Shown here piece after piece: positions 1,333-63,348 of a stretch of DNA of 64,000 nucleotides. The DNA is from a virus. The stretch is taken from positions 140,652 through 204,651 of the IMG/VR virus record IMGVR_UViG_3300035703_000010. The stretch is one strand, 5' to 3'. Under the pieces are notes generated by a model that did no database searches, was not told where the DNA came from, and worked only from the letters and a program-made list of their open reading frames with translations. The position numbers and the translations under genes were made by a program. How positions within the stretch are numbered: the stretch's first letter is position 1; each line of letters begins with the position of its first letter.

Positions 1333-1351
1333 TGAATATTTTAAGGAAAAT

Positions 1352-1927: not shown

Positions 1928-1948
1928 TAGGCATTAGATTAATAGTTT

Positions 1949-1984: not shown

Positions 1985-1996
1985 ATTATTATTTAA

Positions 1997-2434
1997 ATGT
2001 CTCCTGACCTTGATAAAGTTCTTTGTGAAAAATACCCAAAGATATTTAAGAACAGAAACGGTTCTATCATGGAAACATGTATGTCATGGGGATTTGAATG
2101 TGAAGATGGATGGTTTGACATCATCGATATTTTATGTCATGAGATTCAGCATCATGTAGATTGGAAATCAAAGGATCTTTCTGAAGAAGAAAGAGAATCA
2201 TTCCAGGTCGTCGCTGATCAAGTAAAAGAAAAGTACGGTACACTTAGGTTTTATTACTACGGTGGAGATGAAGTTATTGAAGGAATGGTATCAATGGCTG
2301 AGTCAATGTCACATAGGACTTGTGAACATTGTGGCTGCCCAGGAGATCATAGGCCTGGCGGGTACATTAAAACCTTGTGCGATTCTTGCGATGACGAATG
2401 GAAAACATCAAGAGGAGTTATTCGGTGCAAATAG
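1997..2434 (+). CDS. Phage hypothetical protein with C-terminal zinc ribbon
   Basis: A 145-residue protein of unknown function. The N-terminal half has a tryptophan/aromatic-rich core (WGFECEDGWFDIIDILC) followed by VKEKYGTLRFYY. The C-terminal quarter has TCEHCG and TLCDSC, two Cys pairs expected to bind one zinc ion. I recall similar small proteins (GFECGDGW, KEKFGTLRFY, TCExCG) from many phages, always without a known function. Its end overlaps the next gene by 10 bases if that gene uses its GTG start, suggesting translational coupling. Confidence 0.75.
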   Translation: MSPDLDKVLCEKYPKIFKNRNGSIMETCMSWGFECEDGWFDIIDILCHEIQHHVDWKSKDLSEEERESFQVVADQVKEKYGTLRFYYYGGDEVIEGMVSMAESMSHRTCEHCGCPGDHRPGGYIKTLCDSCDDEWKTSRGVIRCK

Positions 2435-3258
2435 GATGGGCAACTGACATTCACCTAGACATGGCAGGTGATGTTTTAGGAAAAGTAAAAATGTTATCTT
2501 CACAATTAAAAAATTGTGAAGCTTTATTGATAACAGGAGATATATCAGTTTCAGAGATGTTGGTTCCTCATCTTTCTATGCTGGAGACAGTTATAGAAAA
2601 ACCGATATATTTTGTTTTAGGAAATCATGATTATTATGGATCAAATATAGGAATCGTTAGAAGAAAAGTTACGAACATGTGTAATTCTTCTTCATTCCTA
2701 AGATACATGTCCAGCGTTCCTTTTATTAAAATTGACGAAGGGAAATACATTATAGGTCATGATGGGTGGTATGATACGCAAAACGGTAATCCGTACAGTG
2801 ATACATTGTTAATGAATGACTGGATAAGAATTGGAGATTTTAATTCTTCTATTCGAGCTTCCTATGATGGAAGAGCAATAAACAAAAATGTAATCGTTGG
2901 AATATCAAAACAGCTTGCTCAACAATCCGTAAATCATGTTGCTAACGCAATTAAAGCAGTGATAAAAAGCAGCGAGCACATTGTTGTGATGACGCATGTC
3001 CCTCCGTTTAAAGAATCATTTAATGCTTCAGAAAAATATTCTGGTATACCATCGACTGACATTTTACCATGGTACACTTCAAAAGTCATGGGTGATATGT
3101 TGCTGAATGCTGCGAAAACATATCCTCACGTTAAGTTTACAGTATTATCTGGACATGTCCATAGTCATTATGATGATGATTTGCTCAATAACTTAAATGT
3201 GAAAGTTGGAAGAGCAATTTATGGAAATCCGCAGCTAGCAACTTCGATATCTGTTTAA
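2425..3258 (+). CDS. Calcineurin-like metallophosphoesterase
   Basis: Binuclear metal phosphoesterase of the calcineurin-like superfamily. The motifs appear in order: ATDIHLD (D-x-H), LLITGDIS (GD), LGNHDYYG (GNHD), VVMTHVPPF (H) and LSGHVHSHY (GHxH), so all metal ligands are present. The substrate cannot be predicted; phage relatives act on phosphodiesters or phosphoproteins. I chose the GTG at 2425, because AGAGGAG lies 7 bases upstream at 2411-2417; an in-frame ATG at 2398 lies further inside the previous gene and has no such site. Confidence 0.9.
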   Translation: MQIGWATDIHLDMAGDVLGKVKMLSSQLKNCEALLITGDISVSEMLVPHLSMLETVIEKPIYFVLGNHDYYGSNIGIVRRKVTNMCNSSSFLRYMSSVPFIKIDEGKYIIGHDGWYDTQNGNPYSDTLLMNDWIRIGDFNSSIRASYDGRAINKNVIVGISKQLAQQSVNHVANAIKAVIKSSEHIVVMTHVPPFKESFNASEKYSGIPSTDILPWYTSKVMGDMLLNAAKTYPHVKFTVLSGHVHSHYDDDLLNNLNVKVGRAIYGNPQLATSISV

Positions 3259-3274
3259 TTATATAAGGGCGGTT

Positions 3275-3805
3275 ATGAAGAGATCGCTACTACTAAACTC
3301 AAACGGCGAACCACTACAGTTCATTAGTGAAGTAAGGGCAATTAAGCTTGTACTTAGCGGAAGAGCAGATCCGCAAACCGGATCTACTGGTGAACCTTCT
3401 TACTGGGATGATGAATACAATACGTGTTCAAGCGCTTTTAAGCTTCCAGCTGTTTTACGATTGAAGAATTACATTGTTCGCAAAATTGATAGAAAACCTC
3501 CACGATTTCAAAAGCGAGTATTGTTTAATAGAGATTCTTGGTGCTGTCAATATTGTGGTATAGAATTAAGTTATTCTTCTATTACGGTCGACCATGTATT
3601 ACCAATTTGTAAGGGAGGCCCAACAACTTGGAATAATTGTGTTGCGGCTTGCAAGATTTGCAATCGTAAAAAAGGTGGAAAAACATTAGAAGAATCAGGA
3701 ATGAAATTAAAAAAGAGACCAACAGAACCATCGCCACTTCATTTTTGGGATATATCTAAGTCTACTGCATGGCATGATGATTGGTCTATTTTCGTGAATG
3801 TTTAA
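3275..3805 (+). CDS. HNH endonuclease
   Basis: HNH-family nuclease. The core spans about residues 87-135: CQYCGIELS, ITVDHVLP (the DH of the HNH motif), a G-G-x-x-x-W-N-N turn, then ACKICNRKKGG, giving two CxxC pairs for a structural zinc plus the catalytic His and Asn. The N-terminal part (LLLNSNGEPLQFISEVRAIKLVLSGRA) is the usual leader of the bacterial/phage HNH group that resembles McrA-type proteins. AAGGGCGG precedes the ATG. It may be a homing-type or repair nuclease; neighbouring genes do not decide. Confidence 0.88.
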   Translation: MKRSLLLNSNGEPLQFISEVRAIKLVLSGRADPQTGSTGEPSYWDDEYNTCSSAFKLPAVLRLKNYIVRKIDRKPPRFQKRVLFNRDSWCCQYCGIELSYSSITVDHVLPICKGGPTTWNNCVAACKICNRKKGGKTLEESGMKLKKRPTEPSPLHFWDISKSTAWHDDWSIFVNV

Positions 3806-8547: not shown

Positions 8548-9552
8548 ATGGCTAAAGGATTAGACGTCGGTACATCATTTATAGTTCTTGCTGAAGAAGG
8601 CGCAAAAGGAAAAGTTACATACAAAGATTTCCGCGATGCTTTTTATGTCATCAAACCTACAACTCCAATTGCAACAAAGATGATTGAAAAGGGATTAGCA
8701 GGAAAAACTTTCGTTAAGGATGCCGATGGTTCTTTCATCATCCTTGGAAAAGACGCAATTGAGAAGGCAGTCGAGAGAAACGATTCAGCTAAGAGACCGA
8801 TGTATAAAGGCGTAGTTTCTTCAAAAGAAAAAGATGCAAGAAGAATTTTGACTTATATCCTTAAAGAAGTATCAGGAACACCAGCAGAACCAGGAGAAAA
8901 ATTAGTCTTCTGCGTACCAGCTCAACCTGTCGATCAAGAAGATGAGGATTTTGACGTCGGATACCATGAAGACGTAATCGTAAAACTTCTTACAGAAGTT
9001 GGGTATTCAGCACGTGCAATAAATGAGGCCGAAGCTCTTTGTTATTCTGAACTAGAAAAGGATGATTATACTGGAGTGGCTCTATCATGGGGCGCGGGAA
9101 TGGTTAACGTTTGCGTAATGCTCAATGGTGAACCTGTCGTTACTTTCTCTACAACGAAGTCTGGTGACTGGGTTGATCGCATGGCTGCAGTGGCTACTGG
9201 AGAACCTGATTCTATCGTTCAGGCAGAAAAGGAAAATGGAGATTTTACCGTAGGTCAGCCGAATGACAATCAAGTTCTTGCTGCGGTTGCTTCTTATTAT
9301 GATCGTCTAATCGATTACACGACGAAGCAATTGGCATCATCCATGGAAGGACATAAGTCTATTCCAAAGTTCAAGGATCCGCTTCCAGTCGTCGTTGCTG
9401 GAGGAACCTCAAAAGCAAAAGGATTCGTCGATCTTTTTGCAAAGAAACTTAATGAGAATGGTTTTCCGCTTCCTGTCAAAGAAGTTCGTCATGCAGCTGA
9501 TCCACTTCATGCTGTTGCTCGCGGTTGCCTAATCGCTGCGCAAATTATGTAA
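8548..9552 (+). CDS. Actin-like ATPase (ParM/MreB-fold)
   Basis: Actin/Hsp70-fold ATPase. Phosphate-1 loop KGLDVGTSFI (residues 3-12), phosphate-2 loop VALSWGAGMVNVCV (about 178-191) and the adenosine loop VVVAGGTSKAKGF near residue 288 are all present and in order. The sequence is closer to archaeal/bacterial actin-like ATPases and FtsA/ParM-like phage proteins than to DnaK, as there is no substrate-binding domain. Phage actins segregate or position genomes (for example AlfA- or ParM-like). No adaptor or centromere-like repeat array was found next to it. A good ribosome site (CTAGGAG) precedes the ATG and a terminator follows. Confidence 0.8.
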   Translation: MAKGLDVGTSFIVLAEEGAKGKVTYKDFRDAFYVIKPTTPIATKMIEKGLAGKTFVKDADGSFIILGKDAIEKAVERNDSAKRPMYKGVVSSKEKDARRILTYILKEVSGTPAEPGEKLVFCVPAQPVDQEDEDFDVGYHEDVIVKLLTEVGYSARAINEAEALCYSELEKDDYTGVALSWGAGMVNVCVMLNGEPVVTFSTTKSGDWVDRMAAVATGEPDSIVQAEKENGDFTVGQPNDNQVLAAVASYYDRLIDYTTKQLASSMEGHKSIPKFKDPLPVVVAGGTSKAKGFVDLFAKKLNENGFPLPVKEVRHAADPLHAVARGCLIAAQIM

Positions 9553-9660: not shown

Positions 9661-12354
9661 ATGACTACAAAAGTTCCTTCACGATTCGTAGGCCTTCACA
9701 GCCACTCGGGGTTTAGTACCTTTGATGGACTTGATTATCCGCAAGAACACATCGATTACGTTCTAGAGAACGGTATGGATGCCTGGTCGTTGACTGACCA
9801 TGGTCACATGAACGGATTCTGCCATGCATATCTTCATGCCGAGAAGATGAAAAAATCAGGTAAGAACTTCAAGTTCATTCCTGGCTGCGAGATGTACGTC
9901 CATCCTGATCTAAAACAATGGCAGATCGATCTCGATAAGTCGAGAGAAAAACCGATCAAGGACGAATCTATCCTCACACCCCTCGCTGCGATCGTTGACG
10001 GTAACGATGAAACGACTGACATCGGTACCGATGAAGCCGCATTGACCATCGAAAACGAGGAGGAAACAAAATCAGGCAAGTACAACGACCCGATCAAACG
10101 TCGGCATCATCTCGTTGTCCTACCGAAAACATCAATTGGCCTACAAAGGTTATTCCATCTAGTTTCTCGAGGTTATTTGGAGGGCTTCTATAGGTTCCCA
10201 CGAGTTGATTATGCGATGTTGAAGGAAGCCGCAAAGGGAGGTCATCTCATGATTTCAACAGCATGCCTAGGTGGTGTGCTGAGCTATGACGTCTTCTCAA
10301 AGGTTCAACGCGTCAAGTTCGATGACCTATCACACAAACTTCTTGATGATAGGAGCTTGCTTGAGTCAACCTTGCTTGAGATGGGTAACACATATGACAA
10401 ATTGGTTAATGCTGTAGGACGAGACAATGTTTGCCTTGAGCTACAATTCAACAAACTTCCAGCCCAACATCTTGTTAACCGCGCAATTCTTGAATTTGCG
10501 AAGAAGAATTCATTGACTGATCGACTCGTTGTAACTTGCGATTCTCATTATTCTCGTCCAGACAACTGGAAAGAGCGTGAGATCTACAAGAAGCTAGGAT
10601 GGCTTAATTACCAAAACTTCGATCCGAACATGCTGCCGAAGTCGAAGGACGATCTGAAGTGCGAGTTGTATCCAAAGAACGCACCTCAGGTCTGGGATTC
10701 CTACCTGTCCACGTCTGAAGACATGTCATTCTATGATGATGATGTTGTTCGTGAAGCAATCGAGCGGACTCATGACATCGTCCACAATGAAATCGGCGAT
10801 ATCCATCCTGATAAGGAGATGAAGCTACCATCCTACGTCATCCCTGAAGGATTCACTGAAGATAAAGCATTGGTCGATGCATGTAAGAAAGGTCTCATTT
10901 GGCGAGGGCTCGATGACAAGCCTGAGTACATCGAACGTATCAAGTATGAGCTATCGATCATCAAAGGTAAGAAGTTCTCACGCTACTTCTTGACGATGAA
11001 GGCGATCATGGATTTGGCACGAGAACATATGTTGATCGGGCCAGGTCGCGGATCTGCTGCAGGTTCTCTCGTTGCTTATGTTCTTGGTGTTACTAACCTT
11101 GACCCTATTGAATACGACTTATCATTTGAACGCTTCCTTAACCCATCTCGACAAGGCGCTCCTGATATCGATTCTGACATTGGAGATCGCGATAAACTAA
11201 TCGAGCTCATGCGCGAAAACTTTGGTAATAACAATGTTATCCCAATTTCTAACTACAATACTTTTAAGTTAAAGAGCCTCATTAAAGACATCGCGCGGTT
11301 CTACAACATCCCATTTGAAGAAGTCAATGCAGCCTTAGCTCCCGTTGAAGATGACGTAAAGAAAGAGGTCTTTAAGCCAGGAGTTGATAAGAATCTTTTC
11401 GTCTTGACTTATGAAGATGCGATGAAGTATTCAAAGTCGATGCAAGACTTCGTCGCAGCGCATCCAGAGGTTGCAGAACCTATCGAGATCTTATTCAAAC
11501 AAAACCGATCTCTCGGCCGACATGCGGGTGGCGTCATCGTGTCGGAGAACGTTGCAGAGAGGATGCCTCTTATTCTTGCTCGTGGCGAACCTCAAACCCC
11601 ATGGGTCGAAGGTATGCACTATAAACACCTAGAAGAGTTCGGCTGGATCAAATTCGATCTACTAGGTCTTGAAACCCTGCGCATTATCGAACGAGCTATC
11701 TACCTGATTCTGCAACGTCGAGAAGGTGTAGCAAATCCAACATTTAAGGATGTGAAGGCTTGGTTCGACAAGCATATGGATCCTAAGAATATCGATCTCA
11801 ATGATCAAAGGGTGTATGAATACGTTTATCATGAGGGACGATTTGCTGGTGTGTTCCAGTGTACGCAACCTGGTGCTCAACGATTGTTCACTAAGGCAAA
11901 GCCTCGCAGCATCATCGACATTGCAACTTTGACATCGATCTATCGTCCTGGTCCTCTAGCGGCCAATGTCGATAAGATCTATATCGGCGCCAAGAACGAA
12001 CCTGATAAGATCGATTACCAGCACCCTTTGATCAAGAAGGTGCTTGAGTCTACATACGGATGTTTACATGGATCAACTGTTATTACAACTGATATTGGAG
12101 ATATTACGATTGAAAAAATCGTAGAAGATCAGTTAGTCGGAACAAAATTGCCATCTTTTAACGAAGAATCTTGCGAGATTGAACAAGACGAAATTGTTGC
12201 TGCAGTTTGCACTGGCGTTCAAGAGACTCTAACGATTGAACTTGAAGATGGAAAAACTATTCGTTTAACATCAGATCATAGAGTGTACACAACTAGAGGC
12301 TGGGTCGAGGCTGGAGATTTGACTGCAGAAGACGAAATTTTTGGAATTGAATAG
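9661..12354 (+). CDS. dnaE: DNA polymerase III alpha subunit, N-terminal part, fused to N-intein
   Basis: First half of a C-family replicative polymerase. The PHP domain opens with GLHSHSGFSTFDG and WSLTDHGHMNG. The palm shows GPGRGSAAGSLVAYVLG near 461, PDIDSD (Asp502 and Asp504) and KFDLLGL (Asp666), so all three catalytic aspartates are intact. The extein ends at TYG (residue 800, base 12060); the last 97 residues are an N-terminal split-intein half, then a stop. The rest of the enzyme is encoded at 13386-14555, so activity requires trans-splicing to an enzyme of about 1189 residues, a normal DnaE length. Codons of the extein are richer in C/G-ending forms than in the intein and neighbours. 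Confidence 0.93.
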   Translation: MTTKVPSRFVGLHSHSGFSTFDGLDYPQEHIDYVLENGMDAWSLTDHGHMNGFCHAYLHAEKMKKSGKNFKFIPGCEMYVHPDLKQWQIDLDKSREKPIKDESILTPLAAIVDGNDETTDIGTDEAALTIENEEETKSGKYNDPIKRRHHLVVLPKTSIGLQRLFHLVSRGYLEGFYRFPRVDYAMLKEAAKGGHLMISTACLGGVLSYDVFSKVQRVKFDDLSHKLLDDRSLLESTLLEMGNTYDKLVNAVGRDNVCLELQFNKLPAQHLVNRAILEFAKKNSLTDRLVVTCDSHYSRPDNWKEREIYKKLGWLNYQNFDPNMLPKSKDDLKCELYPKNAPQVWDSYLSTSEDMSFYDDDVVREAIERTHDIVHNEIGDIHPDKEMKLPSYVIPEGFTEDKALVDACKKGLIWRGLDDKPEYIERIKYELSIIKGKKFSRYFLTMKAIMDLAREHMLIGPGRGSAAGSLVAYVLGVTNLDPIEYDLSFERFLNPSRQGAPDIDSDIGDRDKLIELMRENFGNNNVIPISNYNTFKLKSLIKDIARFYNIPFEEVNAALAPVEDDVKKEVFKPGVDKNLFVLTYEDAMKYSKSMQDFVAAHPEVAEPIEILFKQNRSLGRHAGGVIVSENVAERMPLILARGEPQTPWVEGMHYKHLEEFGWIKFDLLGLETLRIIERAIYLILQRREGVANPTFKDVKAWFDKHMDPKNIDLNDQRVYEYVYHEGRFAGVFQCTQPGAQRLFTKAKPRSIIDIATLTSIYRPGPLAANVDKIYIGAKNEPDKIDYQHPLIKKVLESTYGCLHGSTVITTDIGDITIEKIVEDQLVGTKLPSFNEESCEIEQDEIVAAVCTGVQETLTIELEDGKTIRLTSDHRVYTTRGWVEAGDLTAEDEIFGIE
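12061..12351 (+). other. Split intein, N-terminal half (97 aa)
   Basis: Starts with catalytic Cys1 immediately after extein TYG: block A is CLHGSTVITTD, and block B is TSDHRVYTTRGWVEAGDL with the TxxH motif. There is no endonuclease or C-terminal splicing block in frame before the stop. The insertion point lies in the conserved polymerase segment corresponding to TYG/V-I-x-Y-Q-E-Q of bacterial DnaE. Confidence 0.9.
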
Positions 12355-12397
12355 ACATATGGGTATATTTATCTTCCAAGAAAGAGGCTCTTGGAAG

Positions 12398-13303
12398 ATG
12401 AGAACTTGTGAATGTTGTGATAAAAAATTTGTTTATACAGGACCAAAAGGAAAAAATTATCCCGCAAAGACTTGCAGCGCAGAATGTTATAAGATATTAA
12501 GATCAAAAAAAATATCTCAATCAAACATCGATAGAAGGATACACGAAAAAGTAGAAAAGATTTGCGAAATTTGTGGTACGATAATCATAACAAATGATAC
12601 AGAGAACCAACGCATAACTTGCTCTAAGAAATGTCATTCTAAGAGATTATCGAAATTATACGCAGGAAGAAAAATAACTGAAGAGTGGCGACAAAATCAG
12701 AATAAGTCAAAGACTAAAGACAAAATTGTAAAGCATGGAGATTTTTCATGTGATAAATGTCAAAAACATTTTGATACCAACACTTCGCTTAGATCTCATA
12801 GATCATATTGTACTCCTGGAAATGAAGGTCATATTTGTTGCGAAATATGCAATAAGAGTTTTTCTACGCGAGGGTACAAGATCCATTTTAAGAGTCATGA
12901 TTTAATATGGAGATCGAAGACTACAAGTTCTCTTCAAAAATCTCTACTAACAAGAACGAAATGTCAGACTACCTCTAAATCAGAGTTAGAATTTTTTGAA
13001 AAATTAAAGTCTTTGTTGGGTGATGATGTTGTACACAAGTTTAAAATTGAAGGAATTACTCATGAATATGATTTTTTTGTTCCTTCAAAAAATGTTATCA
13101 TAGAGTTTGATGGTGATTATTGGCATGGCAATAAGAAGCTATACGAGTTATCTTCTAGAATGAAACGTCAATATCAGATTGATAAAGTGTGGAATGAAAA
13201 AGCAATAGCTGCTGGGTATAGAATAATAAGAGTTTGGGCATCAGAGTCAAAAGATTTTAAGTTGGAAAATTATGTTAACACCCTTGAAAATAAAGTCGAT
13301 TAA
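12398..13303 (+). CDS. Free-standing Vsr-like homing endonuclease in the intein break
   Basis: Putative homing endonuclease. The N-terminus has several CxxC pairs (CECCDKKF, CEICGTII, CDKCQKHF, CEICNKSF), giving three to four zinc fingers for DNA recognition. The C-terminal domain has HEYDFFVPSKNVIIEFDGDYWHG, then RQYQIDKVWNEKAIAAGYRIIRVW, the pattern of Vsr-like (very-short-patch-repair fold) homing nucleases. The ATG at 12398 follows AAGAGG at 12382-12387; an earlier in-frame ATG at 12341 lies inside the N-intein. Its 3' end overlaps the C-intein start by 32 bases. AT-rich codon use differs from the polymerase exons, indicating separate acquisition. Confidence 0.85.
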   Translation: MRTCECCDKKFVYTGPKGKNYPAKTCSAECYKILRSKKISQSNIDRRIHEKVEKICEICGTIIITNDTENQRITCSKKCHSKRLSKLYAGRKITEEWRQNQNKSKTKDKIVKHGDFSCDKCQKHFDTNTSLRSHRSYCTPGNEGHICCEICNKSFSTRGYKIHFKSHDLIWRSKTTSSLQKSLLTRTKCQTTSKSELEFFEKLKSLLGDDVVHKFKIEGITHEYDFFVPSKNVIIEFDGDYWHGNKKLYELSSRMKRQYQIDKVWNEKAIAAGYRIIRVWASESKDFKLENYVNTLENKVD

Positions 13304-13385
13304 ACGTGACGTACCTGCAAAAGTTTATGATATTCAAACCAAGAAAAATCATAACTTCATTGCAAATGGCTTCTTAGTTCATAAT
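13272..13385 (+). other. Split intein, C-terminal half (38 aa)
   Basis: Block F is VYDIQTKKNHNFIANG and block G is FLVHN, with the terminal Asn needed for cyclisation; the +1 extein residue is Cys. The half is similar in length to known C-inteins. Together with 12061-12351 it has every splicing block, so trans-splicing is plausible. Confidence 0.9.
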
Positions 13386-14555
13386 TGCATAATTTTTCAA
13401 GAGCAAACTATGAAGTTATGTTCTGTCGTTGCTGGGTTCCCGGAGGCTGAAACTGACACGATTCGTAGAAACATCATGAAGCGTTCTGCGTCTAAAAAGG
13501 ATGCAGCTGCTGCAGACGCGAAGAAGGCAAAAGAAGACTTCGTCGCCGGAGCGATGAAGAACGGTGTGCCTGAAAAGGTGGCTGATGAACTATACGAGAA
13601 GATTCTCTTCTTCTCTGGCTACGGCTTTAACGCTTCTCACGCAGTGTCTTACGCAATTGATTCATATTACTGTGCCTGGCTTCTCACCTACTTTGAGGAG
13701 GAATGGCTATGCGCTTACCTCGAGTCGATGTCAGGAAATGATGAAAAGCGTGCTAAGGCATTCTCTGAAGTCAAGGCATTAGGTTACAAGATCGTCAACA
13801 TCGACATCAACTATGCAACGAAGAGCTGGACGATCCTGGATGGTAAACGATTCATGCCTAGCTTCCTTTCATGTAAGGGTGTAGGGGAATCCGCAGTAGA
13901 AGAAATCATGGAAAATCGTCCGTATAAATCAGTGGAAGATATGTTATGGAATGAGGATGGGTCATGGAGGCATTCCAAGTTCAATAAACGTGCCTTGGAG
14001 GCCCTCATTGCAATTAAGGCATTTGATTCTCTTGATTGTATCGGTCATGATAGGACTTTCACCGGATACAAACACATGAGTGAGATCTTGATCAACAGAA
14101 ACGGCGATATCAAGAAACATACAAAGAAGAATCCGACTGCAGGAATCGAAGCATTCCGTGAAGCTTTGATCGATACGAAGAACATGGATGAATGGTCCAG
14201 ATCAGAATTGGTAGATAACAGCATAAAGTATCTCGGTTCATTCAACGCTGCGATGCTGATGCCAGAAGAGATCTTACAAAAGCTTGAGAGCAGAGGAGTC
14301 AAGTCTGTTGATGATTTATCTGAAAGCGACATCTATTGGTTTATCGTTTCTGATACAAAGCCTAAGAAAACGAAGACAGGAAAAAACTATTTGTTGTTAA
14401 CGATTACTGGGCTTGGAGGACAAAACCATAGGTTGTTCTGTTGGGGATGGAATGGCGAAACAGAAATTCCCAAGTACAGCGTTTGCCTTTCAGAAATCAC
14501 CGTAGATGGCTACGGTAATAAAACTTTCATGAGTAAGATTAAAGTCCTTGATTGA
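13272..14555 (+). CDS. dnaE: C-intein fused to DNA polymerase III alpha subunit, C-terminal part
   Basis: Second half of the split polymerase. Residues 1-38 are the C-terminal intein half ending FLVHN; the extein resumes at Cys39 with CIIFQEQTMKLCSVVAGF, matching the DnaE motif VxYQEQVMxIA. Following are GYGFNASHAVSYAIDSYYCAWL, a helix-hairpin-helix region (FLSCKGVGESAVEEIM) and a C-terminal OB-fold-like domain. The start ATG is within the endonuclease gene and has only a weak GGA upstream. Translation and splicing with the product of 9661-12354 are required for a full polymerase. Confidence 0.92.
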   Translation: MLTPLKIKSIKRDVPAKVYDIQTKKNHNFIANGFLVHNCIIFQEQTMKLCSVVAGFPEAETDTIRRNIMKRSASKKDAAAADAKKAKEDFVAGAMKNGVPEKVADELYEKILFFSGYGFNASHAVSYAIDSYYCAWLLTYFEEEWLCAYLESMSGNDEKRAKAFSEVKALGYKIVNIDINYATKSWTILDGKRFMPSFLSCKGVGESAVEEIMENRPYKSVEDMLWNEDGSWRHSKFNKRALEALIAIKAFDSLDCIGHDRTFTGYKHMSEILINRNGDIKKHTKKNPTAGIEAFREALIDTKNMDEWSRSELVDNSIKYLGSFNAAMLMPEEILQKLESRGVKSVDDLSESDIYWFIVSDTKPKKTKTGKNYLLLTITGLGGQNHRLFCWGWNGETEIPKYSVCLSEITVDGYGNKTFMSKIKVLD

Positions 14556-34018: not shown

Positions 34019-35269
34019 TCAACCCTTATTGATAAATTGTTGCATTTCAGTTGAATGTTCTAACGCTAGAGTTGATGAAGTTCCTCCTGAAATTACTTTT
34101 GATACTTCATCAAAGTAACCTGTTCCAACTTCTCTTTGATGCTTTGTTGCAGTATATCCAAATTCCTCTGAAGCAAATTCAGCTTGTTGCAATTCAGAAT
34201 AAGCCGCCATACCATGATCGCGATACTTTCTTGCTAACTCAAACATTCCATGATTCAATGAATGGAAGCCTGCCAAAGTAACGAATTGGAACTTGTAACC
34301 CATAGCGCCAAGTTCTCTCTGAAACTTTGCAATTGTCGTATCATCAAGCTTCTTCTTCCAGTTGAATGACGGTGAACAATTGTATGCAAGAGGCTTACCT
34401 GGGAATTTTGCATGGATGCCTTCTGCAAATGTTTTAGCCTCTTCAAGATCTGGTGTTGACGTTTCCATCCAGATCATATCTGCATAAGGCGCGTATGCAA
34501 GCCCTCTAGCAATAGAACGCTCCATTCCTGTCCTACATAGGTAATGGAATCCTTCTGGAGTTCTCTTTCCAGATTCGATGTAATCGTGATCATATGGATC
34601 AACGTCGCTAGTGATAAGATTTGCCGATTCAGCATCTGTTCTAGCAATGATAATCGTTGGAACATCCATGACGTCAGCAGCAAGACGAGCTGCAGTTAGT
34701 GTGCGAATAAATTGAGATGTTGGGACAAGAACCTTTCCTCCTAAATGACCACATTTCTTTTCTGATGCAAGTTGATCTTCCCAATGAACGGCTGCTGCAC
34801 CTGCTTCAATCATCGCTTTCATTAATTCAAAAGCATTAAGAGGACCTCCAAAACCAGCTTCTGCATCAGCTACGATAGGAGCCATCCAGTGTTTATCATT
34901 ATTCGGATTTTCAGCATGATCAATTTGTTCTGCGCGTAACAATGCATTATTGATTCTTTTAACGATTGCTGGTACGCTGTTTGCTGGATAAAGACTTTGG
35001 TCAGGATATGTGTTTCCAGAAAGATTTGCGTCAGCTGCGACCTGCCACCCAGATAGATAGATAGCTTCTAGACCTGCTTTAACTTGCTGTACGGCCATAG
35101 CTCCAGTCGACGCTCCAAGAGCATTGATATATGGTTTTTCGTTAATTAGCTTCCATAATCTTTCAGCTCCAAGCCGAGCAATAGTATGTTCTACCTTAGT
35201 TTTTCCTCTAAGTTTTTCAACGTCTGCTTGAGTATAAAGTTTTTTAATATTCGCAAATCTGTCATCCAT
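34019..35269 (-). CDS. aceA: Isocitrate lyase
   Basis: A complete 416-residue isocitrate lyase, first enzyme of the glyoxylate shunt (isocitrate to succinate plus glyoxylate). The active-site loop KKCGHLGGK (Cys173) is intact. Other family hallmarks are [40 protein letters not shown] and YNCSPSFNW. No malate synthase is in the window, so it would feed the host shunt or redirect carbon. Length is near the family norm (about 430), with no sign of decay. Confidence 0.95.
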
Positions 35270-52051: not shown

Positions 52052-52275
52052 TAAACTACCTTTGATAACTCGCTTGAAAGAAAAGGACCTTCTATTAAAT
52101 CTTCAAAAAGAACATAATGATTCCAACAATAACTTTCAGAAACATTTTCTACATGTTTACTAGGATAATTGTTTGATGGTTTCGAAGACACAACAATACC
52201 ACATTTAGGTTTAAAGATATGATATACTAAGTCTCCGTTGTTTATTTTGCTTAACAAATTATACCTTAGAATCAT
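52051..52275 (-). CDS. Small SH3-like protein
   Basis: 74 residues: INNGDLVYHIFKPKCGIVVS, then YCWNHYVLFEDLIEGPFLSS; related in pattern to the other GDLV small proteins. It overlaps GroEL by 17 bases. Function unknown. Confidence 0.5.
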   Translation of the reverse strand: MILRYNLLSKINNGDLVYHIFKPKCGIVVSSKPSNNYPSKHVENVSESYCWNHYVLFEDLIEGPFLSSELSKVV

Positions 52276-53869
52276 TTAAAACTACGGCGTCTAAAGTCAT
52301 GAAAAGTTTTGCTACAGAAGTTGAATTTTTCAATGCTGTCTTAGTCACTTTTGCTGGATCAATAATTCCTGCTGAAATTAAATTGATAAACTTTCCTGTA
52401 GATGCATCATATCCTAGTCTTTGTTCTTTGTTTCTTGCCATTTCTTCTTCAACGACGTCAGCAGACTTATCTGAATTTTCAACAATTCTTCTTAAAGGCG
52501 CCTTACAAGCCTTAAGAACAACTTCTATACCAGCAAGAATATCTCTATCATAATCATTCTGCAATAGAACTGTCTTTGCTTCTTCTGCTGCGTAAAAAAG
52601 AGCTGAACCGCCGCCTGGAACAATTCCATCTTCAGCTGCTGCTCTTGTTGCATGTAAAGCATCTTCAATTCGATACTTTCTTTCAATCATTTCAATTTCT
52701 GTTGCACCACCGACCTTAATGATAGCAACACCAGAAGCTAATCTCGCAATTCTCATTTTTAAAATTGAAAGTTCTTCTTGGCTTAGCGTAATATCAGCCG
52801 ATCTGTTTCTTAGATCTTCTACATAAGAACTTACGTTTTCTTGAGTTGATTCGACACCAACAATAGTCGTTGATTTTGCATCAACGATAACTTTTTTCAT
52901 TTTGCCGAGTTCATTTAATGTCGTTTTTTCAAGAGAAGTTCCGTTTGTGCTCGAAATTAAAGTTGCTCCAGTTAGGACGCAAATGTCATTCAAGTAATCT
53001 GTTTTTGATGGACCGAATCCAGGAGCTTTGATTGCAATCACTTGAAGCTGAGTTTTTACTCTATTCAAAACCAATCCTTGTAGAGCTTCTCCTTCTACAT
53101 CATCAGCGATGATTAATAGAGGTTTTCTTGCTTCTAAAGTTCTTTCTAGAACTGGAAGGATGTCTTTAATCGTCGAGATTTTCTTGTCAGTAACTAGAAC
53201 ATATGCATCGTTATAACATGCATGCATTTTTTCATTATTTGTTACGAAATAAGGCGATAGATACCCTCTATCAAATTGCATGCCGTCGACGACATCAAGA
53301 GCAGTTGTCGTTCCTTTTGCGTCCTCTACAGTAATGATTCCGTCTCTTCCAACCTTTTCCATTGCCGAAGCGAGGATTTCTCCTATTTTTTCATCACCGT
53401 TTGCACTGATCGTGCCAATTTGTTTAATTTTTTCTGATGATTCTACTGGAGTTGACATTACTGACAAAAAGCTAGTTATCGTTTTAGTAGCTATGTCTAA
53501 TCCTTCGCATAACTTTTTAGAGTTATACCCAGCATCTAGAAGTTTCATTCCTTCTTTTACTAACGCGTGAGTAAGAACAGTAGAAGTAGTTGTACCATCG
53601 CCAGCAACATCATTGGTTTGAGAAGCTGCTTCTCTAAGTAGCTGAGCTCCCATCATTTCAAGAGGATCTGATAGTTTTACTGATTTGCTTACAGTAACTC
53701 CATCTTTAGTGACGATAGGAGAATTATTGCCGTTTTGGATTAGAACAGTCTTTCCGTTGGGTCCTAGCGTGCAGCTTACTGCTTCTGCAGCTAATCTCAA
53801 TCCATTATAAAGCTTTTTTCTTGCGTCTTTAGAAAAGACAATTCCTTCTACTTTAGTTTCAACATTCAT
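52259..53869 (-). CDS. groEL: GroEL chaperonin
   Basis: Group I chaperonin, 536 residues from the ATG at 53869 (a TTG at 53899 adds ten). It has the nucleotide-binding GPNGKTVLI and DGVTVSKSVKL, GDGTTTSTVL, the apical domain (DGMQFDRGYLSPYFVTN) and PGGGSALFYA. The C-terminus ends DAVVLNDSKV without the Gly-Gly-Met repeats seen in many cellular GroEL. No GroES was found in the window, so it may use the host co-chaperonin or an unrecognised one. Confidence 0.93.
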   Translation of the reverse strand: MNVETKVEGIVFSKDARKKLYNGLRLAAEAVSCTLGPNGKTVLIQNGNNSPIVTKDGVTVSKSVKLSDPLEMMGAQLLREAASQTNDVAGDGTTTSTVLTHALVKEGMKLLDAGYNSKKLCEGLDIATKTITSFLSVMSTPVESSEKIKQIGTISANGDEKIGEILASAMEKVGRDGIITVEDAKGTTTALDVVDGMQFDRGYLSPYFVTNNEKMHACYNDAYVLVTDKKISTIKDILPVLERTLEARKPLLIIADDVEGEALQGLVLNRVKTQLQVIAIKAPGFGPSKTDYLNDICVLTGATLISSTNGTSLEKTTLNELGKMKKVIVDAKSTTIVGVESTQENVSSYVEDLRNRSADITLSQEELSILKMRIARLASGVAIIKVGGATEIEMIERKYRIEDALHATRAAAEDGIVPGGGSALFYAAEEAKTVLLQNDYDRDILAGIEVVLKACKAPLRRIVENSDKSADVVEEEMARNKEQRLGYDASTGKFINLISAGIIDPAKVTKTALKNSTSVAKLFMTLDAVVLNDSKV

Positions 53870-53911
53870 ATAATGTGATAATAGTAAGGTCTTTATCAAT
53901 CTTGTACACGG

Positions 53912-55815: not shown

Positions 55816-56118
55816 TCAAGTCCCGCCAGCACCACCGGCACCAGGAGATCCGCCAGTTCCTGGAGCGCCTCCAGCTCCAACACTGCTAGAAGCTGAAGAA
55901 CTATCTACGCTAGACATTCCGCCTGTACCTTGTTGACCTCCAGAAGAAGCTGTAGAACCTCCTTGACCAGACTCAGAAGTCCCACCAGCTCCTCCTTGAC
56001 CAGATGCTGAGGAAGCGACGACTGATGAAGGTGAAGACTCATCTGTATCGCACTTTTTCTCTTCGCACCCAACAACTAGAGAAGCCAAACAAATAAAAGC
56101 AAAAGTATTCTTAAACAT
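55816..56118 (-). CDS. Ser/Gly-rich lipoprotein
   Basis: 100 residues. The start at 56118 has AAAGGA seven bases upstream and gives MFKNTFAFICLASLVVGC, a signal peptide with a clean lipobox (VVGC). The mature protein is almost entirely Ser, Gly, Ala and Thr (SGQGGAGGTSESGQGGSTAS). Such Ser/Gly low-complexity lipoproteins are typical of myxobacteria-type deltaproteobacteria. Possibly a surface masking or receptor-blocking protein. Confidence 0.65.
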   Translation of the reverse strand: MFKNTFAFICLASLVVGCEEKKCDTDESSPSSVVASSASGQGGAGGTSESGQGGSTASSGGQQGTGGMSSVDSSSASSSVGAGGAPGTGGSPGAGGAGGT

Positions 56119-56193
56119 TTTATATCCTTTCATCTCACAAGAGATGAAAACATTATACAACACTATAAAACGATTTTTTACTTAATTAAAGCT

Positions 56194-57190: not shown

Positions 57191-57221
57191 GTTAAGTTAA
57201 TTAAATTTTGAGAATTATTAC

Positions 57222-57377
57222 ATGATTATGATAGCATGTCATATGATCATTGCTACTCTAGCAATTGGTCTATTCGTTTGCACGTTAAAAATAAAGTCTA
57301 ATCCAAAGATTCCAAAGCCATCATTTTCTAGCAGCAGAAGCGTTGACTTTCCCGACGATTTTGATTTTTGGAATTAA
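57222..57377 (+). CDS. Small membrane protein (51 aa)
   Basis: MIMIACHMIIATLAIGLFVC is a single membrane segment, then a cytoplasmic-like tail SNPKIPKPSFSSS ending DDFDFWN. No strong ribosome site is seen. Likely real given the filled gap and clean frame. Confidence 0.45.
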   Translation: MIMIACHMIIATLAIGLFVCTLKIKSNPKIPKPSFSSSRSVDFPDDFDFWN

Positions 57378-57431
57378 TGTTATTTATCGAATATTCATTT
57401 TGCTGATAGGTACTTATAATCAAGGTATCTA

Positions 57432-58598
57432 ATGAGTATTTTTAGAGAACACAAGACAGTCGCTGATCGTACGGCTTCTGACCGTAGAAGACATAAGCAT
57501 AAGATTGAAAAAGCCATACGAGAAGGTATTCATCATATCGTTGCTGATGAAAGCATTATCAGCAAAGATGGAAAACAAAAATATCGTATCCCAGTAAGAG
57601 GAATAAAAGAATATCGTTTCGTATACGGAAGTAACGGTAAACAAGTTGGATCTGCTCCTGGGAGAGATGTAAAACGAGATCAAAAAATTGGTGATCCTCC
57701 GCCTCAAGGCCAGGGAGGGCAACCAAACAAGGCAGGTGGCGATAAAGGTGAAGAATATTATGATGTTGAAATTACGCACGAAGAGTTAGCTGAATATCTC
57801 TTTGCGGAATTAAAACTTCCAGAACTTCAAAGAAGACAATTAAAAAACATTGAATCAGAAAAGCTGAAAAGAAAAGGTTATCGTCCACAAGGAATCATGC
57901 CGAGGTTGGACAGGAAGAAGTCTGCAATTGCTCGCATCAAGCGAATGAAGGCTGCTGGATTTGATCCTGAAAAAGCCGAAGACGGAGAAACCTTCTCTTT
58001 TCATGAAGATGATCTTGTTTATCGACACTACAAGATGAAGAAAAAGCCATGCACAAATGCCGTTATTTTCTTCGTCATGGATGTTAGCGGATCGATGTCA
58101 CAAGAAAAGAAGTTTCTCGCAAGATCGTTCTTCTTCCTTCTATACCAATTTCTTCGTCTTAAGTATGAAACGATTGACATCGTCTTCATATCTCATGATA
58201 CCGAAGCTAAAGAAGTTGAAGAAAAAGAATTTTTTACAAAGGCTTCGACAGGAGGAACTAGAGCTTCTTCAGCTATATCAATGACGAACGATATTATAGA
58301 GAAGAGATATCATCCTTCATCATGGAACATTTATTTGTTTCAATGTTCTGATGGTGATAATTTTTCCGATGATAATGAGAAATTTATACAAGAAGTTCAA
58401 AAAGCTATGTCAGTTTCGCAGCTATATGGTTATTGCGAAATTGAACCTGAAACAAGCTGGATGTCAGAACCTGGAAGATTGTATGGGTTATTGCGGCCTC
58501 TTCAAGGAAACGTTTTAAAAGAAGTTAGAATTCAAAAACGAGAAGATGTGTGGCCAGCATTCATGAGTTTAATGAACGGCGCGAAGGAGGATGAGTGA
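57432..58598 (+). CDS. YeaH/YhbH (DUF444) family VWA-domain protein
   Basis: 388 residues. FREHKTVADRTASDRRRHKH opens the family; the VWA domain has a MIDAS motif DVSGSMSQ at Asp217, then FISHDTEAKEVEEKEFF, and TGGTRASSAI. In enterobacteria yeaH is the middle gene of the prkA(yeaG)-yeaH-ycgB stress operon. Order here is yeaH, spoVR, prkA. The first 20 kDa is charged with a DxQIGDPPPQGQ linker, as in cellular members. Confidence 0.9.
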   Translation: MSIFREHKTVADRTASDRRRHKHKIEKAIREGIHHIVADESIISKDGKQKYRIPVRGIKEYRFVYGSNGKQVGSAPGRDVKRDQKIGDPPPQGQGGQPNKAGGDKGEEYYDVEITHEELAEYLFAELKLPELQRRQLKNIESEKLKRKGYRPQGIMPRLDRKKSAIARIKRMKAAGFDPEKAEDGETFSFHEDDLVYRHYKMKKKPCTNAVIFFVMDVSGSMSQEKKFLARSFFFLLYQFLRLKYETIDIVFISHDTEAKEVEEKEFFTKASTGGTRASSAISMTNDIIEKRYHPSSWNIYLFQCSDGDNFSDDNEKFIQEVQKAMSVSQLYGYCEIEPETSWMSEPGRLYGLLRPLQGNVLKEVRIQKREDVWPAFMSLMNGAKEDE

Positions 58599-59905
58599 TG
58601 GATTATAAATTAGAAGACCTAAAAGTGTGGGATGAAAGAATCGTCGCTCTAGCTAAAAAGCACAATCTAGATTGGTTTGAACTAGATTACGAGGTCATCG
58701 ATTATCATGAAATGATCGGTGCCATGGTCCATCATGGCATGCCATCCATGTATTCTCATTGGTCGTTTGGAAAGTCTTTCGAACAAACGATGAATCGTTA
58801 TAATCTCGGAGCCGAAGGACTACCTTACGAGCTAATCATCAACAGTGATCCTTCTCTTGCTTATCTCATGAGAGAAAATCCGTTATACCTCCAGATTCTC
58901 ATCATGGCTCACTGCGTTGGACATTCAGATTTCTTCAAGAACAACAGAATGTTCAAGAACACACGTCCAGAATCCGTGATCCAACGTTTGCGTTCTGCCA
59001 AGAAGAGAATTCAAAAGTACGTGGAAGATCCCCACATCGGAATTGATGCAGTAGAAAGAACGTTAGACGCATGTCAGGCTCTTCAGTTTCAAACGACAAA
59101 GTATGGTCAAGTTCGTCGCCCTCATGCCGAGATAAAAGCAGAATACATCGAATTGATCAACAACGATAAAGACGGAAAATACAAAAACTTCAACATCGAT
59201 ATCGTTCCACTAGAACCAGACTACGATCTTCTTGGATTCATCGAAGAAAACGCTAGGATTCCAGAGTGGAAGCGCGATATCATCCATGTTTGCCGAGAAG
59301 AAGGTCAGTATTTCTGGCCACAAATTCAAACGAAGATCATGAATGAAGGTTGGGCTTCATACTGGCATTACACGCTTTGCCACGAGCTCGAGCTTCCTGG
59401 TGAACTTCACCTTCCAATCGTCAAGATGCACAATGCCGTCGTCAGACCACACATCGGAGCAATTAATCCTTACCACCTTGGATTCCATCTTTTCCAAAAG
59501 ATAAAGGAACGTCATGGAATTGAAGAGTGCTTCTTGGCTCGCGAGGTTTGTTACGACTCATCGTTCTTGCGTCAGTATCTTACTGAAGAAGATTGCATCG
59601 ATTTAAATCTTTTTTCTTATTCTTTCAAGAAAAAGATTGGAATCACGGTTGATGACGTTTCTGACGAAAGAGGATGGAAACAAGTAAAAGAAGATTTAAT
59701 TTCAAACGTTGCGGGAGGATCAATTCCTGTCGTATATGTAGATGAAGTAAAAAAAGATAGAATGCTAATTGTTCGTCATGAACATGAAGGTAGAGATTTA
59801 GACATAAAGCATGCAAATGAAGTAGTTGAACACATAAAAAATTTATGGGATGGTCAGGTTAAGTTTTATACGATGTTAGAAGACGAACCTTGGGAAATTG
59901 ATTAA
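58598..59905 (+). CDS. SpoVR/YcgB family protein
   Basis: 435 residues, typical SpoVR: IDYHEMIGAMVHHGMPSMYS, HWSFGKSFEQTMNRYNLG, LIINSDPSLAYLMRENP, LQILIMAHCVGHSDFF, and NEGWASYWHYTL. ATG overlaps the yeaH stop with AAGGAGG seven bases upstream, so they are translationally coupled. The 5' two-thirds use more C-ending codons than the 3' part and the neighbours. Confidence 0.92.
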   Translation: MDYKLEDLKVWDERIVALAKKHNLDWFELDYEVIDYHEMIGAMVHHGMPSMYSHWSFGKSFEQTMNRYNLGAEGLPYELIINSDPSLAYLMRENPLYLQILIMAHCVGHSDFFKNNRMFKNTRPESVIQRLRSAKKRIQKYVEDPHIGIDAVERTLDACQALQFQTTKYGQVRRPHAEIKAEYIELINNDKDGKYKNFNIDIVPLEPDYDLLGFIEENARIPEWKRDIIHVCREEGQYFWPQIQTKIMNEGWASYWHYTLCHELELPGELHLPIVKMHNAVVRPHIGAINPYHLGFHLFQKIKERHGIEECFLAREVCYDSSFLRQYLTEEDCIDLNLFSYSFKKKIGITVDDVSDERGWKQVKEDLISNVAGGSIPVVYVDEVKKDRMLIVRHEHEGRDLDIKHANEVVEHIKNLWDGQVKFYTMLEDEPWEID

Positions 59906-59936
59906 CTCTAGCCTTAGAAGAGGATACATATAAATT

Positions 59937-61874
59937 ATGAGCAGCATCAAGAAACAACTTTTACAACAAATTAAAACAGCACGCGAAGAATCTAGCAAGA
60001 CCAAAAAGTTTTCTGGAAACTTAATGGACTACATCGAGATGGTCGAAAAAGATCCATCCGTCGTCAAGTCCGCCCACAAACGTCTTCATGACGCTATCGA
60101 AGAACACGGCTCCTACGTGTTGCCGGATTCAGATCCAAGAAAGTTTAAGATTTTTGATGGCGAGAACATCAAGATTCACAAATACTTCGAAGGCGAGTTC
60201 TTCGGAATGGAAACCGTCATCGAGAAGGTCATGAGCTTCTTGTCATCCGCAGCTCACAAAGGTGAAGAGTCACGTCAGGTTCTTCTCCTCATGGGACCAG
60301 TCGGCGCTGGTAAGTCTGCCCTAACAGAGCACATCAAGAAGTCTCTTGAAGGCAAGAAGTACTACACACTAAAGGGTGATCCCCATCGTGGCGAACCTCT
60401 TCAGTTAATTCCAAGATCTCTTCGTCCTTCAGTAGAGTCAGCCATCAATGTGAAGATCGATGGTGACATCTCACCTGTCGCCCGTCACAAGCTTCTCAAC
60501 GATTACGCTGGCAAGTACGAGGACTTCGAGGTTGAAGAAGTTACCTTCTCGCAACGTGGTCGTCGTGGTGTAGCTTCTGTTCCTCCGATGGATGCTAACT
60601 CTCAAGACGTTTCCGTTCTCATCGGATCAGTCGATATTTCAAAGCTTGATAAGTTTGCAGAGGATGATCCAAGAGCTCTTTCTCTTAATGGTGCATTCAA
60701 CGTTGGTAATCGTGGCATCGTTGAACTCGTCGAGGTCTTCAAGAACGAGATTGAGTTCCTCCACACGATCATCACCGCGACCCAAGAGAAGCGCGTCCCA
60801 TCACCAGGCAAGTCAGACATGCTTCACTTCGATGGTGTCATCCTCGCACACTGTAACGAGGCTGAGTGGAATCGTTTCCAGTCAGAACACACCAATGAAG
60901 CCATCATGGATCGTATCGTAAAGATCTCAGTTCCTTACTGCCTTGAGCTTAACCAAGAGGTTAAGATCTATGAGAAGATGCTGGGTAAGTCAGAGTTTAA
61001 GTCACACATCGCTCCACACACCTTGAAGATTGCCTCAATGTTCTCCGTCATGAGTCGACTCAAGGATTCGGCTAAGTGTGACCTTCTCACCAAGATGAAG
61101 ATCTACAACGGTGAAGACGTCCTTGAAAAGGGACGCGTTCGTAAGGTCGACATCAAGGATCTCAGAGAAGAAGCTAAGCATGAAGGAATGGATGGAATTT
61201 CAACACGCTTCATTACGAAGGCTCTTGACAATGCTCTTACTGCATCCGACAAGAACATGATCACACCAATCTCTGTCATGGATTCTTTGACCAAGATGGT
61301 GAAAGAACAATTAATCGATGAACAATTTAAGTCAAAGTGCCTTGAGCTTCTTCAGAAGACTATCCGCGAAGAATATCTAAAGATTTTAGAGACAGAGATA
61401 GCAAAAGCTTTCATTACTGCTTATGAAGAACAAGCTCAATCTTTGTTTGAATCTTATTTAGATAACGCAGAGGCTTACACAACTCGTGCAAAGCTTAAGG
61501 ATAGAGTTACTAAAGAAGAAAGAAAGCCTGATGAACAATTTATGACTTCTATCGAAGAGCAAATTGGAGTTACAGGTTCTTCTCGTGACGGATTCCGCTC
61601 TGACGTTACTGCATACATGTTTGCAAAGATGCGCAGAGGAGAAAAGGTTTCTTATGCTACGTATGAACCTTTGAAGAATGCAATTGAATCATATTTGATT
61701 TCTTCAGTTCGCTCTATGGCACGAATTGTCACTAAGTCCAAGACTCGTGACGAAGATCAACAAAAGAAATACAGCGACATGGTTCAAACTATGATCAAAG
61801 ATTATGGTTATTCTGCAGAATCAGCAGAAGAGATTTTAGTCTTCGCTTCAAATAACCTTTGGAGAGACTCTTGA
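59937..61874 (+). CDS. prkA: PrkA-family serine protein kinase
   Basis: 645 residues with the PrkA AAA+ domain: LLLMGPVGAGKSALTEHIKK (Walker A from residue 119), DPHRGEPLQLIPRSLRPS, GNRGIVELVEVFKNEIEFLH and the C-terminal kinase-like module. This is the YeaG-type kinase of the nitrogen/stress-starvation operon. It ends the triad with yeaH and spoVR. Codon composition changes near 61.3 kb, where the 3' end becomes AT-rich like the rest of the genome. Confidence 0.93.
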   Translation: MSSIKKQLLQQIKTAREESSKTKKFSGNLMDYIEMVEKDPSVVKSAHKRLHDAIEEHGSYVLPDSDPRKFKIFDGENIKIHKYFEGEFFGMETVIEKVMSFLSSAAHKGEESRQVLLLMGPVGAGKSALTEHIKKSLEGKKYYTLKGDPHRGEPLQLIPRSLRPSVESAINVKIDGDISPVARHKLLNDYAGKYEDFEVEEVTFSQRGRRGVASVPPMDANSQDVSVLIGSVDISKLDKFAEDDPRALSLNGAFNVGNRGIVELVEVFKNEIEFLHTIITATQEKRVPSPGKSDMLHFDGVILAHCNEAEWNRFQSEHTNEAIMDRIVKISVPYCLELNQEVKIYEKMLGKSEFKSHIAPHTLKIASMFSVMSRLKDSAKCDLLTKMKIYNGEDVLEKGRVRKVDIKDLREEAKHEGMDGISTRFITKALDNALTASDKNMITPISVMDSLTKMVKEQLIDEQFKSKCLELLQKTIREEYLKILETEIAKAFITAYEEQAQSLFESYLDNAEAYTTRAKLKDRVTKEERKPDEQFMTSIEEQIGVTGSSRDGFRSDVTAYMFAKMRRGEKVSYATYEPLKNAIESYLISSVRSMARIVTKSKTRDEDQQKKYSDMVQTMIKDYGYSAESAEEILVFASNNLWRDS

Positions 61875-61906: not shown

Positions 61907-61936
61907 AAGGCCAATGGAAACGTTGGCCTTATTTAT
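61907..61936 (+). terminator. Rho-independent terminator after prkA
   Basis: AAGGCCAA (61907-61914) pairs with TTGGCCTT (61923-61930), then ATTTATTT. It lies 32 bases after the prkA stop. Confidence 0.75.
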
Positions 61937-62043: not shown

Positions 62044-63348
62044 TTAAATATATTTTGCGCCTGGTTGTCGTTGGTCTTTTAATGCAACAAGGTCTGCAAC
62101 AACATAAGGTACTTCGTAAGAAAACGGACTGGGACCCATAATCCTAGTTTCTTTGTATAATCTTACAGGTTGAAATCTTGATTTTGCTGGCGGGTATGCA
62201 GATTCAAGGAACGGTCTTAGACCTTTGTGGCACCAGTACAAAAATCTTCTCTCATCCCATTTTGATCTATGAGACGGATCGCAGGTTGCTCCTATTCCTA
62301 ATGCATGAGGAGTATATGATAAAAACCATCCTCCTGGAACCAAGCATCTATAAATTTCATCCATCAGCCAGAAAGCATCAAGATCTTCGCCATGCTCAAG
62401 AAAATCAAATGCCCTGAAAGCGCCGATAGAGTTATCTTCAAAAGGAAGTTTTTTTGAACCAAAAACGTCATGAAACACGTCTGGATTTCCAGATATGTCT
62501 AGCGTTTTCCATCCAGGAGCTCCAAAGATACCGCCGCCTAGATCAAATTTAGGCAATCCTTTTACGTCACACTCTCTTGCGACTAAGTCATGTATGTACT
62601 TGTCGCGGAGCAACATAGGTTGAGCCTCGGCAGGTATTTCTAAGTTTTTTCCTTGGCCGCAAAGTCTTTGAATTTCATCACAGTTTTTAAGCCAAGTATT
62701 TTCGCCGTCTGCCCGTCTACGATAACCATAAAGAGGCTTTTCTATATATCGAAATTTTGTTTTTAAATACGTTCTTGCGATTAAATCAAAGTCATCAGCA
62801 ACGTTCAAAGTAACGTCATGACCTCCGACTTCATCATATACTGATTTTCTCCAAGCCCTGAAATGGTTAGGAGCATAAAGTATTTGACATATAGATCTAG
62901 CAGTGGGATGAAATGACCTTGTAGCAAGAAGATTTCTGCCTCTTATTTCACAAGGATAAGATTCCCATCCATACGCTTCACCGTATGTGAAGGGTTCTCC
63001 TGTAGCATCTACCCATTCTGCACAATCTGAATAAGCAAATCCGACTTCAGGATCTTCAAATGCCTTTTCTGCTTCAAGAAGAGCATTTTCAGCTAAAATG
63101 TCATCATGATCTAACTCAAGAAGAATTTCTCCATGAGCAGATTGGCATAGTTGCTTTTTTGCATCTCCTACGCCTTTCCATTCTCCTGTACTAATAATCC
63201 TAACTCTAGGATCTTTAGGAATATTATCTAAGTCAGGATTTCCATTAATTCCTATCAACCATTCAAATTCGACAGGTTGATCAACTAATGATTCCCATGC
63301 ATCTTTTAACCAAGTTGTATTATTAGTAGGAGTAAAAATTGATATCAC
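62044..63348 (-). CDS. Glycosyltransferase (GT2)-methyltransferase fusion
   Basis: 434 residues. The N-terminal half is a GT-A enzyme (MISIFTPTNNTTWLKDAWES ... LLELDHDDILAENALLEAEK with the D-x-D metal site, then AWRKSVYDEVGGHD). The C-terminal 190 residues form a SAM-binding methyltransferase-like domain (PKFDLGGGIFGAPGWKTLDI, FDFLEHGEDLDAFWLMDEIY, VPGGWFLSYTP). Both parts appear intact. Could make or decorate a methylated sugar on DNA or virion; target unknown. Confidence 0.75.
   Translation of the reverse strand: MISIFTPTNNTTWLKDAWESLVDQPVEFEWLIGINGNPDLDNIPKDPRVRIISTGEWKGVGDAKKQLCQSAHGEILLELDHDDILAENALLEAEKAFEDPEVGFAYSDCAEWVDATGEPFTYGEAYGWESYPCEIRGRNLLATRSFHPTARSICQILYAPNHFRAWRKSVYDEVGGHDVTLNVADDFDLIARTYLKTKFRYIEKPLYGYRRRADGENTWLKNCDEIQRLCGQGKNLEIPAEAQPMLLRDKYIHDLVARECDVKGLPKFDLGGGIFGAPGWKTLDISGNPDVFHDVFGSKKLPFEDNSIGAFRAFDFLEHGEDLDAFWLMDEIYRCLVPGGWFLSYTPHALGIGATCDPSHRSKWDERRFLYWCHKGLRPFLESAYPPAKSRFQPVRLYKETRIMGPSPFSYEVPYVVADLVALKDQRQPGAKYI

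Follow-up and report, generated by a model that had tools for sequence, protein, structure and literature searches.

The DNA analysed here (the window) is a stretch of 64,000 nucleotides that forms the end of a 204,651-bp IMG/VR virus record (IMGVR_UViG_3300035703_000010, positions 140652-204651). Three genes lie together on its plus strand as a PrkA-YeaH-SpoVR operon: a yeaH/yhbH-like gene for a DUF444 protein of 388 aa with a putative VWA domain (57432-58598), spoVR (58595-59905), whose product has 436 aa when read from the GTG at 58595 or 435 aa from the ATG at 58598, and prkA (59937-61874), encoding 645 aa with an AAA+ ATPase part and a helical C-terminal domain. A sequence-only reading of the window had described three intact genes at 57432-61874, and this is confirmed by the open frames and by Pfam matches of all three products. 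The same reading had claimed coupled starts throughout the block. The yeaH and spoVR genes are indeed coupled because they overlap, the stop TGA of yeaH and the GTG/ATG starts of spoVR falling in AAGGAGGATGAGTGATG, and a strong ribosome-binding site for spoVR sits within the 3' end of yeaH (AAGGAGGATGAGTGATG); spoVR and prkA are 31 nt apart, and thus this pair is close and not coupled. A strong intrinsic terminator with a 10-bp stem, a loop of 4 and a T-rich tail (61907-61930, plus strand) closes the operon and faces a converging gene at 62044-63348. The 241-bp intergenic region upstream of yeaH (57191-57431) is presumed to be the promoter region and holds no clear promoter: a sigma-70 scan of it scored below the shuffle mean, with matches not above those in shuffles, and the T4-type late promoter TATAAATA is absent from it. 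As TATAAATA is absent here and was found within 250 bp upstream in only 4 of 99 related loci, no conclusion on timing was drawn from it and it was dropped as evidence of timing.

Each protein was assigned to its family by profile searches. YeaH matches Pfam DUF444 (PF04285) with 360 bits (E=2.5e-107) and has a complete MIDAS motif, DxSxS...T...D. SpoVR matches PF04293 (382 bits, E=2.9e-114) and SpoVR_C PF24755 (37 bits) over its full length. PrkA matches AAA_PrkA PF08298 at residues 28-381 (455 bits, E=1.8e-136) and the PrkA C-terminal family PF06798 at residues 384-636 (270 bits, E=2.2e-80), again a full-length assignment. All three proteins score below the cut-offs of the NCBIfam equivalogs, YeaH with 380 bits against 468 for spore_yhbH and PrkA with 403 bits against 576 for NF011999. 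Judged by these profiles, the window PrkA is a diverged member of the same family as bacterial PrkA.

The MIDAS, the Walker A motif and the SpoVR HxxGH/E residues are invariant or nearly so across viral and bacterial homologues. The five MIDAS residues of YeaH, D217-x-S219-x-S221 (58080-58094) with T276 (58257-58259) and D307 (58350-58352), are invariant in 163 homologues (100 T4-like viral, 6 from other phages and 57 bacterial). In SpoVR, H105-x-x-G-H109 (58910-58924) and E250 (59345-59347) make up a putative metal site proposed from the motif, and H105, H109 and E250 are invariant in 153 homologues. Position 106, between the invariant histidines, is Cys in all 102 T4-like phages counted (L011-L120) and Val or Ala in bacteria and other phages. 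The Walker A motif of PrkA, GPVGAGKS, occupies residues 120-127 (60294-60317), and the ATPase residues G120, K126, S127, E263, E266, R326 and R374 are all present and invariant in 191 homologues. Median dN/dS values of close pairs were 0.011 for yeaH, 0.024 for spoVR and 0.040 for prkA, with 5 to 9 pairs per gene close enough to measure; by this measure the triad is maintained by strong purifying selection.

The PrkA model (pLDDT 89.7) has an AAA+ domain and, after it, a C-terminal domain built of helices, in which residues 406-645 are helical without any strand as long as 3 residues. The structural matches that rank best are the AAA+ domains of Lon and of sigma-54 activators, and BchI; the target-normalised TM-scores are highest for NorQ, solved in complex with the VWA domain of NorD (0.73), and CbbQ2 (0.67), with BchI at 0.49. 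No protein kinase is found among the 50 best structural matches, and the C-terminal half lacks the beta-rich N-lobe of a Hanks-type Ser/Thr kinase. A solved relative of PrkA, 9xip, is deposited as a 'serine protein kinase'. Both the kinase and the protease activity of purified B. anthracis PrkA are negligible (PMC13001217). The name of kinase, which had been given to this protein when the sequence was first read, is therefore unsupported in view of its all-helix C-terminal half, its AAA+ neighbours and the B. anthracis result. For SpoVR (model pLDDT 95), a fold search of the PDB gave no match with E<=0.001, and the weak top matches, which are zincin-like, were set aside as evidence; its metal role is accordingly proposed from the motif, SpoVR being a probable metal-binding protein with a putative site at H105/H109/E250. 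Profile searches of the PDB with YeaH and SpoVR returned nothing credible, and the DUF444 profile does not reach the solved VWA structures there, the suggested link of YeaH to VWA proteins being drawn from the MIDAS motif.

Several other genes of the window were identified. A DNA polymerase III alpha gene (9661-14555, plus strand) is split in two. An intein N-terminal region closes the N part and an intein C-terminal region opens the C part; a gene for a free HNH endonuclease (12341-13303) separates them, so that the arrangement is that of a split intein with its endonuclease in between. An actin-like protein (8548-9552, plus strand) matches the 'Volactin' Pfam family and is 92-97% identical in relatives. 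A full-length GroEL is encoded on the minus strand (52259-53899), about 3.5 kb from the triad, and some dozen related loci also have a GroEL gene close to the triad. A small lipoprotein-like ORF (55816-56163, minus strand) has a long low-complexity tail of Ser, Gly and Ala, as is common in Myxococcota, which is a possible hint to the host. The isocitrate lyase gene (34019-35269, minus strand) has an intact KKCGH catalytic motif, scores above the NCBIfam cut-off and also lies less than 8 kb from the triad in three related loci (L028, L029 and L104); a phage isocitrate lyase fits a slow-growth setting and proves nothing.

The triad was rightly described as lying on a phage, because the same 204,651-bp record encodes a T4-type large terminase, a portal, a major capsid protein, a baseplate wedge and a sheath stabiliser; tail fibres and a replicative DNA polymerase are also present. 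A search of other large phage genomes, which the sequence-only reading had proposed as a check, was carried out in IMG/VR. The PrkA profile gave 540 relatives, of which the 80 best were retained; scanning again with the window PrkA brought in more, so that 109 loci were fetched. All three genes were found in 102 of them, in every case on one strand and in the order yeaH-spoVR-prkA; the other seven are short of one or two genes, in each case where the contig ends. Sampling through SpoVR, with a single protein as query, gave 75 loci with all three genes, again all in this order and on contigs partly shared with the PrkA sample, and the two samples together contain 125 distinct spoVR sequences. 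In one locus (L428, 4001-5729) spoVR is interrupted, perhaps by an intron or an intein, its match extending over 1.7 kb. Since both samples are biased to close relatives, contigs were also sampled via polymerase, capsid and terminase. Of the contigs of at least 240 kb found in this way, 4 of 4 have prkA, as does 1 of 5 related contigs of 185-213 kb and none of the smaller ones; the contigs that lack it (four of 185-213 kb and the small ones) may be fragments or real absences. Most cultured T4-like phages are without the triad, and the genes that flank it are not conserved across the T4-like clade. A 293-kb viral record (G004) carries the T4-like major capsid gene in two tandem copies (C1:176275-180147). 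With more than 100 related environmental phage sequences holding the same genes in the same order, the triad looks like a working, selected phage module and not like stray host DNA.

The order yeaH-spoVR-prkA differs from that of bacteria. Among 80 loci from bacterial genomes, nearly all of those with all three genes have prkA-yeaH-spoVR. The exceptions are a locus of a Clostridia MAG with yeaH-spoVR-prkA and bacterial-looking neighbours (L173), two Paenibacillus loci with spoVR-yeaH downstream on the opposite strand, and one MAG-derived locus (L120) that is a phage contig. This last is a 305-kb contig (NHDW01000006.1) from the MAG 'Methylococcaceae bacterium TMED69'. It belongs to a T4-like phage and carries, besides the triad, the same T4-like capsid gene as the window phage, which makes it either a misbinned contig or a weak hint to the host. 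The closest true bacterial PrkAs found are 52-57% identical to that of the window and come mostly from Clostridium and its relatives, with some from Bdellovibrionota, Myxococcota and Flammeovirga.

A tree of PrkA places the T4-like phages in a single supported clade within a Clostridium-rich bacterial group and is most naturally read as acquisition from bacteria. The Thermus phages make up a separate clade in another part of the tree. Of the uncultured very large phages, three (635-642 kb) group with proteobacterial YeaG and one (595 kb) with planctomycete-type PrkA; some phage branches are long, which leaves exact placements unsure. A single clade of T4-like and Thermus phages was rejected (p=1.6e-9), as was one of T4-like and the three very large phages (p=3.7e-41). 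By formal test phages have thus acquired the PrkA system at least twice separately, and probably four times. A single phage origin of the system appears unlikely from the tree, and therefore the order yeaH-spoVR-prkA probably arose more than once.

Related sets of genes are known from bacteria and from a few phages. The window operon resembles bacterial prkA-yeaH(yhbH)-spoVR (R. etli CH02817-02815; Bacillus prkA/yhbH), a starvation and sporulation system whose E. coli counterpart is yeaGH plus ycgB, in that the three families are full length, the motifs are conserved and the genes form one operon; it differs in gene order and in its PrkA, whose identity to the bacterial PrkAs found does not exceed 57%. 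The cultured Thermus phages phiYS40, TMA, phiLo, MN1 and Lalka8/27 have yeaH-spoVR-prkA in the same order in GenBank, but their PrkA is about 27-34% identical to that of the window and lies on a separate branch of the tree, a shared clade being rejected. The Ralstonia jumbo phage RsoM2USA is likewise a large phage with prkA and spoVR, and its SpoVR (ORF28) and PrkA (ORF30) have been reported, each listed singly (PMC8504454). The uncultured 595-642-kb phages LR745206, LR756502, LR756504 and LR756511 also carry prkA, spoVR and yeaH, but with prkA followed by yeaH as in bacteria and with bacterial-type PrkA; in LR756502 spoVR lies elsewhere, apart from prkA-yeaH. PHROGs holds families for all three proteins. 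The phage triad is therefore not unprecedented, being preceded by the Thermus phages and RsoM2USA. In the literature searched, outside which most subscription journals fall, there was no paper on the phage triad as a unit or system, and its breadth, its repeated capture and its fixed, re-ordered layout appear to be undescribed.

Other explanations of the triad were weighed against these data. It ends 2.1 kb before the end of the contig, and therefore the question whether it is host DNA at a prophage or assembly boundary, which the sequence-only reading had named as its own refutation, was tested directly. Such cases do exist, as Enterobacter phage LAU1 (L008) demonstrates, a record that starts with a host-type yeaG-yeaH pair (1-3308), likely host DNA at a phage boundary. 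Here, however, the gene order of the window over 52.1-63.7 kb is repeated, with the same flanks, inside a separate 211-kb contig (L021), the triad is internal in other viral contigs of 255-361 kb, and the same T4-like capsid gene is present at 62-90% identity in 14 of 17 triad contigs longer than 100 kb. With these observations, the 102 IMG/VR triad loci and a nearest bacterial PrkA that is only 57% identical and set in a different gene order, the refutation fails, and contamination, chimerism or a prophage boundary is rejected as an exceedingly improbable source of the triad. A host operon might also be carried as selfish or neutral cargo without benefit to the phage, as its apparent acquisition from bacteria would allow, but the strong purifying selection seen in dN/dS, an order fixed in more than 100 diverged loci, persistence down to about 50% SpoVR identity and the separate acquisitions by phages make this very unlikely, and the dN/dS values and the persistence largely refute it.

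If the triad does act for the phage, its target could be phage proteins and not host physiology, PrkA-YeaH-SpoVR serving as a chaperone that remodels them, for instance in virion assembly. The triad of Thermus phage Lalka8 has portal/minor head genes on one side and the terminase on the other, that of phiYS40 is near the terminase and tail sheath, and a GroEL gene lies 3.5 kb upstream in the window. We consider this reading unlikely, as the homologous bacterial system works without any phage (PMC3188799, PMC10954441), the flanking genes vary within the T4-like clade, those identified here (GroEL, glycosyltransferase, isocitrate lyase) are non-structural, and most cultured T4-like phages do without the triad. 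AAA+/VWA pairs are known in some defence systems, and a growth-braking module could act as a weapon or shield between phages, by superinfection exclusion or by a slow-down that blocks competitors or host defence. Such a role seems quite improbable, since neither YeaH nor SpoVR is modelled in PADLOC and no defence-like cluster surrounds the triad in the loci examined. As to identity with a named defence system, the weak match of PrkA to part of DolB (24 bits) in PADLOC gives no support.

We favour, with a probability of about 0.55, the reading that the triad is a functional phage operon for an AAA+/VWA remodelling machine plus SpoVR, supplied to tune the infected cell. With its AAA+ motor next to a VWA protein that bears a MIDAS, the operon suggests a remodelling pair of the MoxR/chelatase-like kind. 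Like NorQ-NorD, CbbQ-CbbO and BchI-BchD, PrkA and YeaH would combine a matching AAA+ fold with a VWA partner; unlike them, PrkA has a large helical C-terminal domain of its own and SpoVR is a third partner, so that the modelled likeness extends to the fold of the AAA+ part. PrkA would form an ATP-driven AAA+ ring with YeaH as its VWA/MIDAS adaptor, in the manner of MoxR-VWA pairs such as NorQ-NorD, and SpoVR, with its invariant, metal-site-like HxxGH...E, would be the effector or client that the PrkA motor activates or remodels, a role that we infer because SpoVR matches no known fold significantly. We infer likewise that the three proteins would form a complex, that SpoVR would hold a metal and that the host would be affected.

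What the operon may do in the cell is suggested by its bacterial relatives. In E. coli, YeaG acts jointly with YeaH under nitrogen starvation (PMC4664914), and the two have been described as a metabolic brake (PMC10954441); in R. etli prkA, the VWA gene and spoVR form one stress-linked operon (PMC3188799). By analogy with YeaG/YeaH (PMC10954441), the most plausible reading is that the phage would steer the starvation physiology of its host, and its copy may hold the infected cell in a survivable state of low activity or allow a long infection to proceed in that state. More tentatively, the starvation brake of bacteria may have been domesticated by a clade of large T4-like phages, in which the module, re-ordered to yeaH-spoVR-prkA, would be near-universal and would let the phage set the state of slow-growing hosts; its recruitment by phages, at least twice and probably four times, would make it a common viral strategy for infecting non-growing cells. 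This wider proposal is possible, although we hold it with less than even confidence.

The spoVR gene is the most abundant 'sporulation' gene in the virome of an ocean oxygen-minimum zone (PMC8940887), and the phage triad offers an explanation for its abundance there, in which the phages need not infect spore formers. PrkA-YeaH-SpoVR is widespread in bacteria, and phiYS40 on Thermus thermophilus HB8 is a tractable system for tests. The repeated capture of the full set by unrelated phages, with all three genes strictly retained together, argues for joint action of the proteins as a unit and for a benefit to phages from control of host quiescence.
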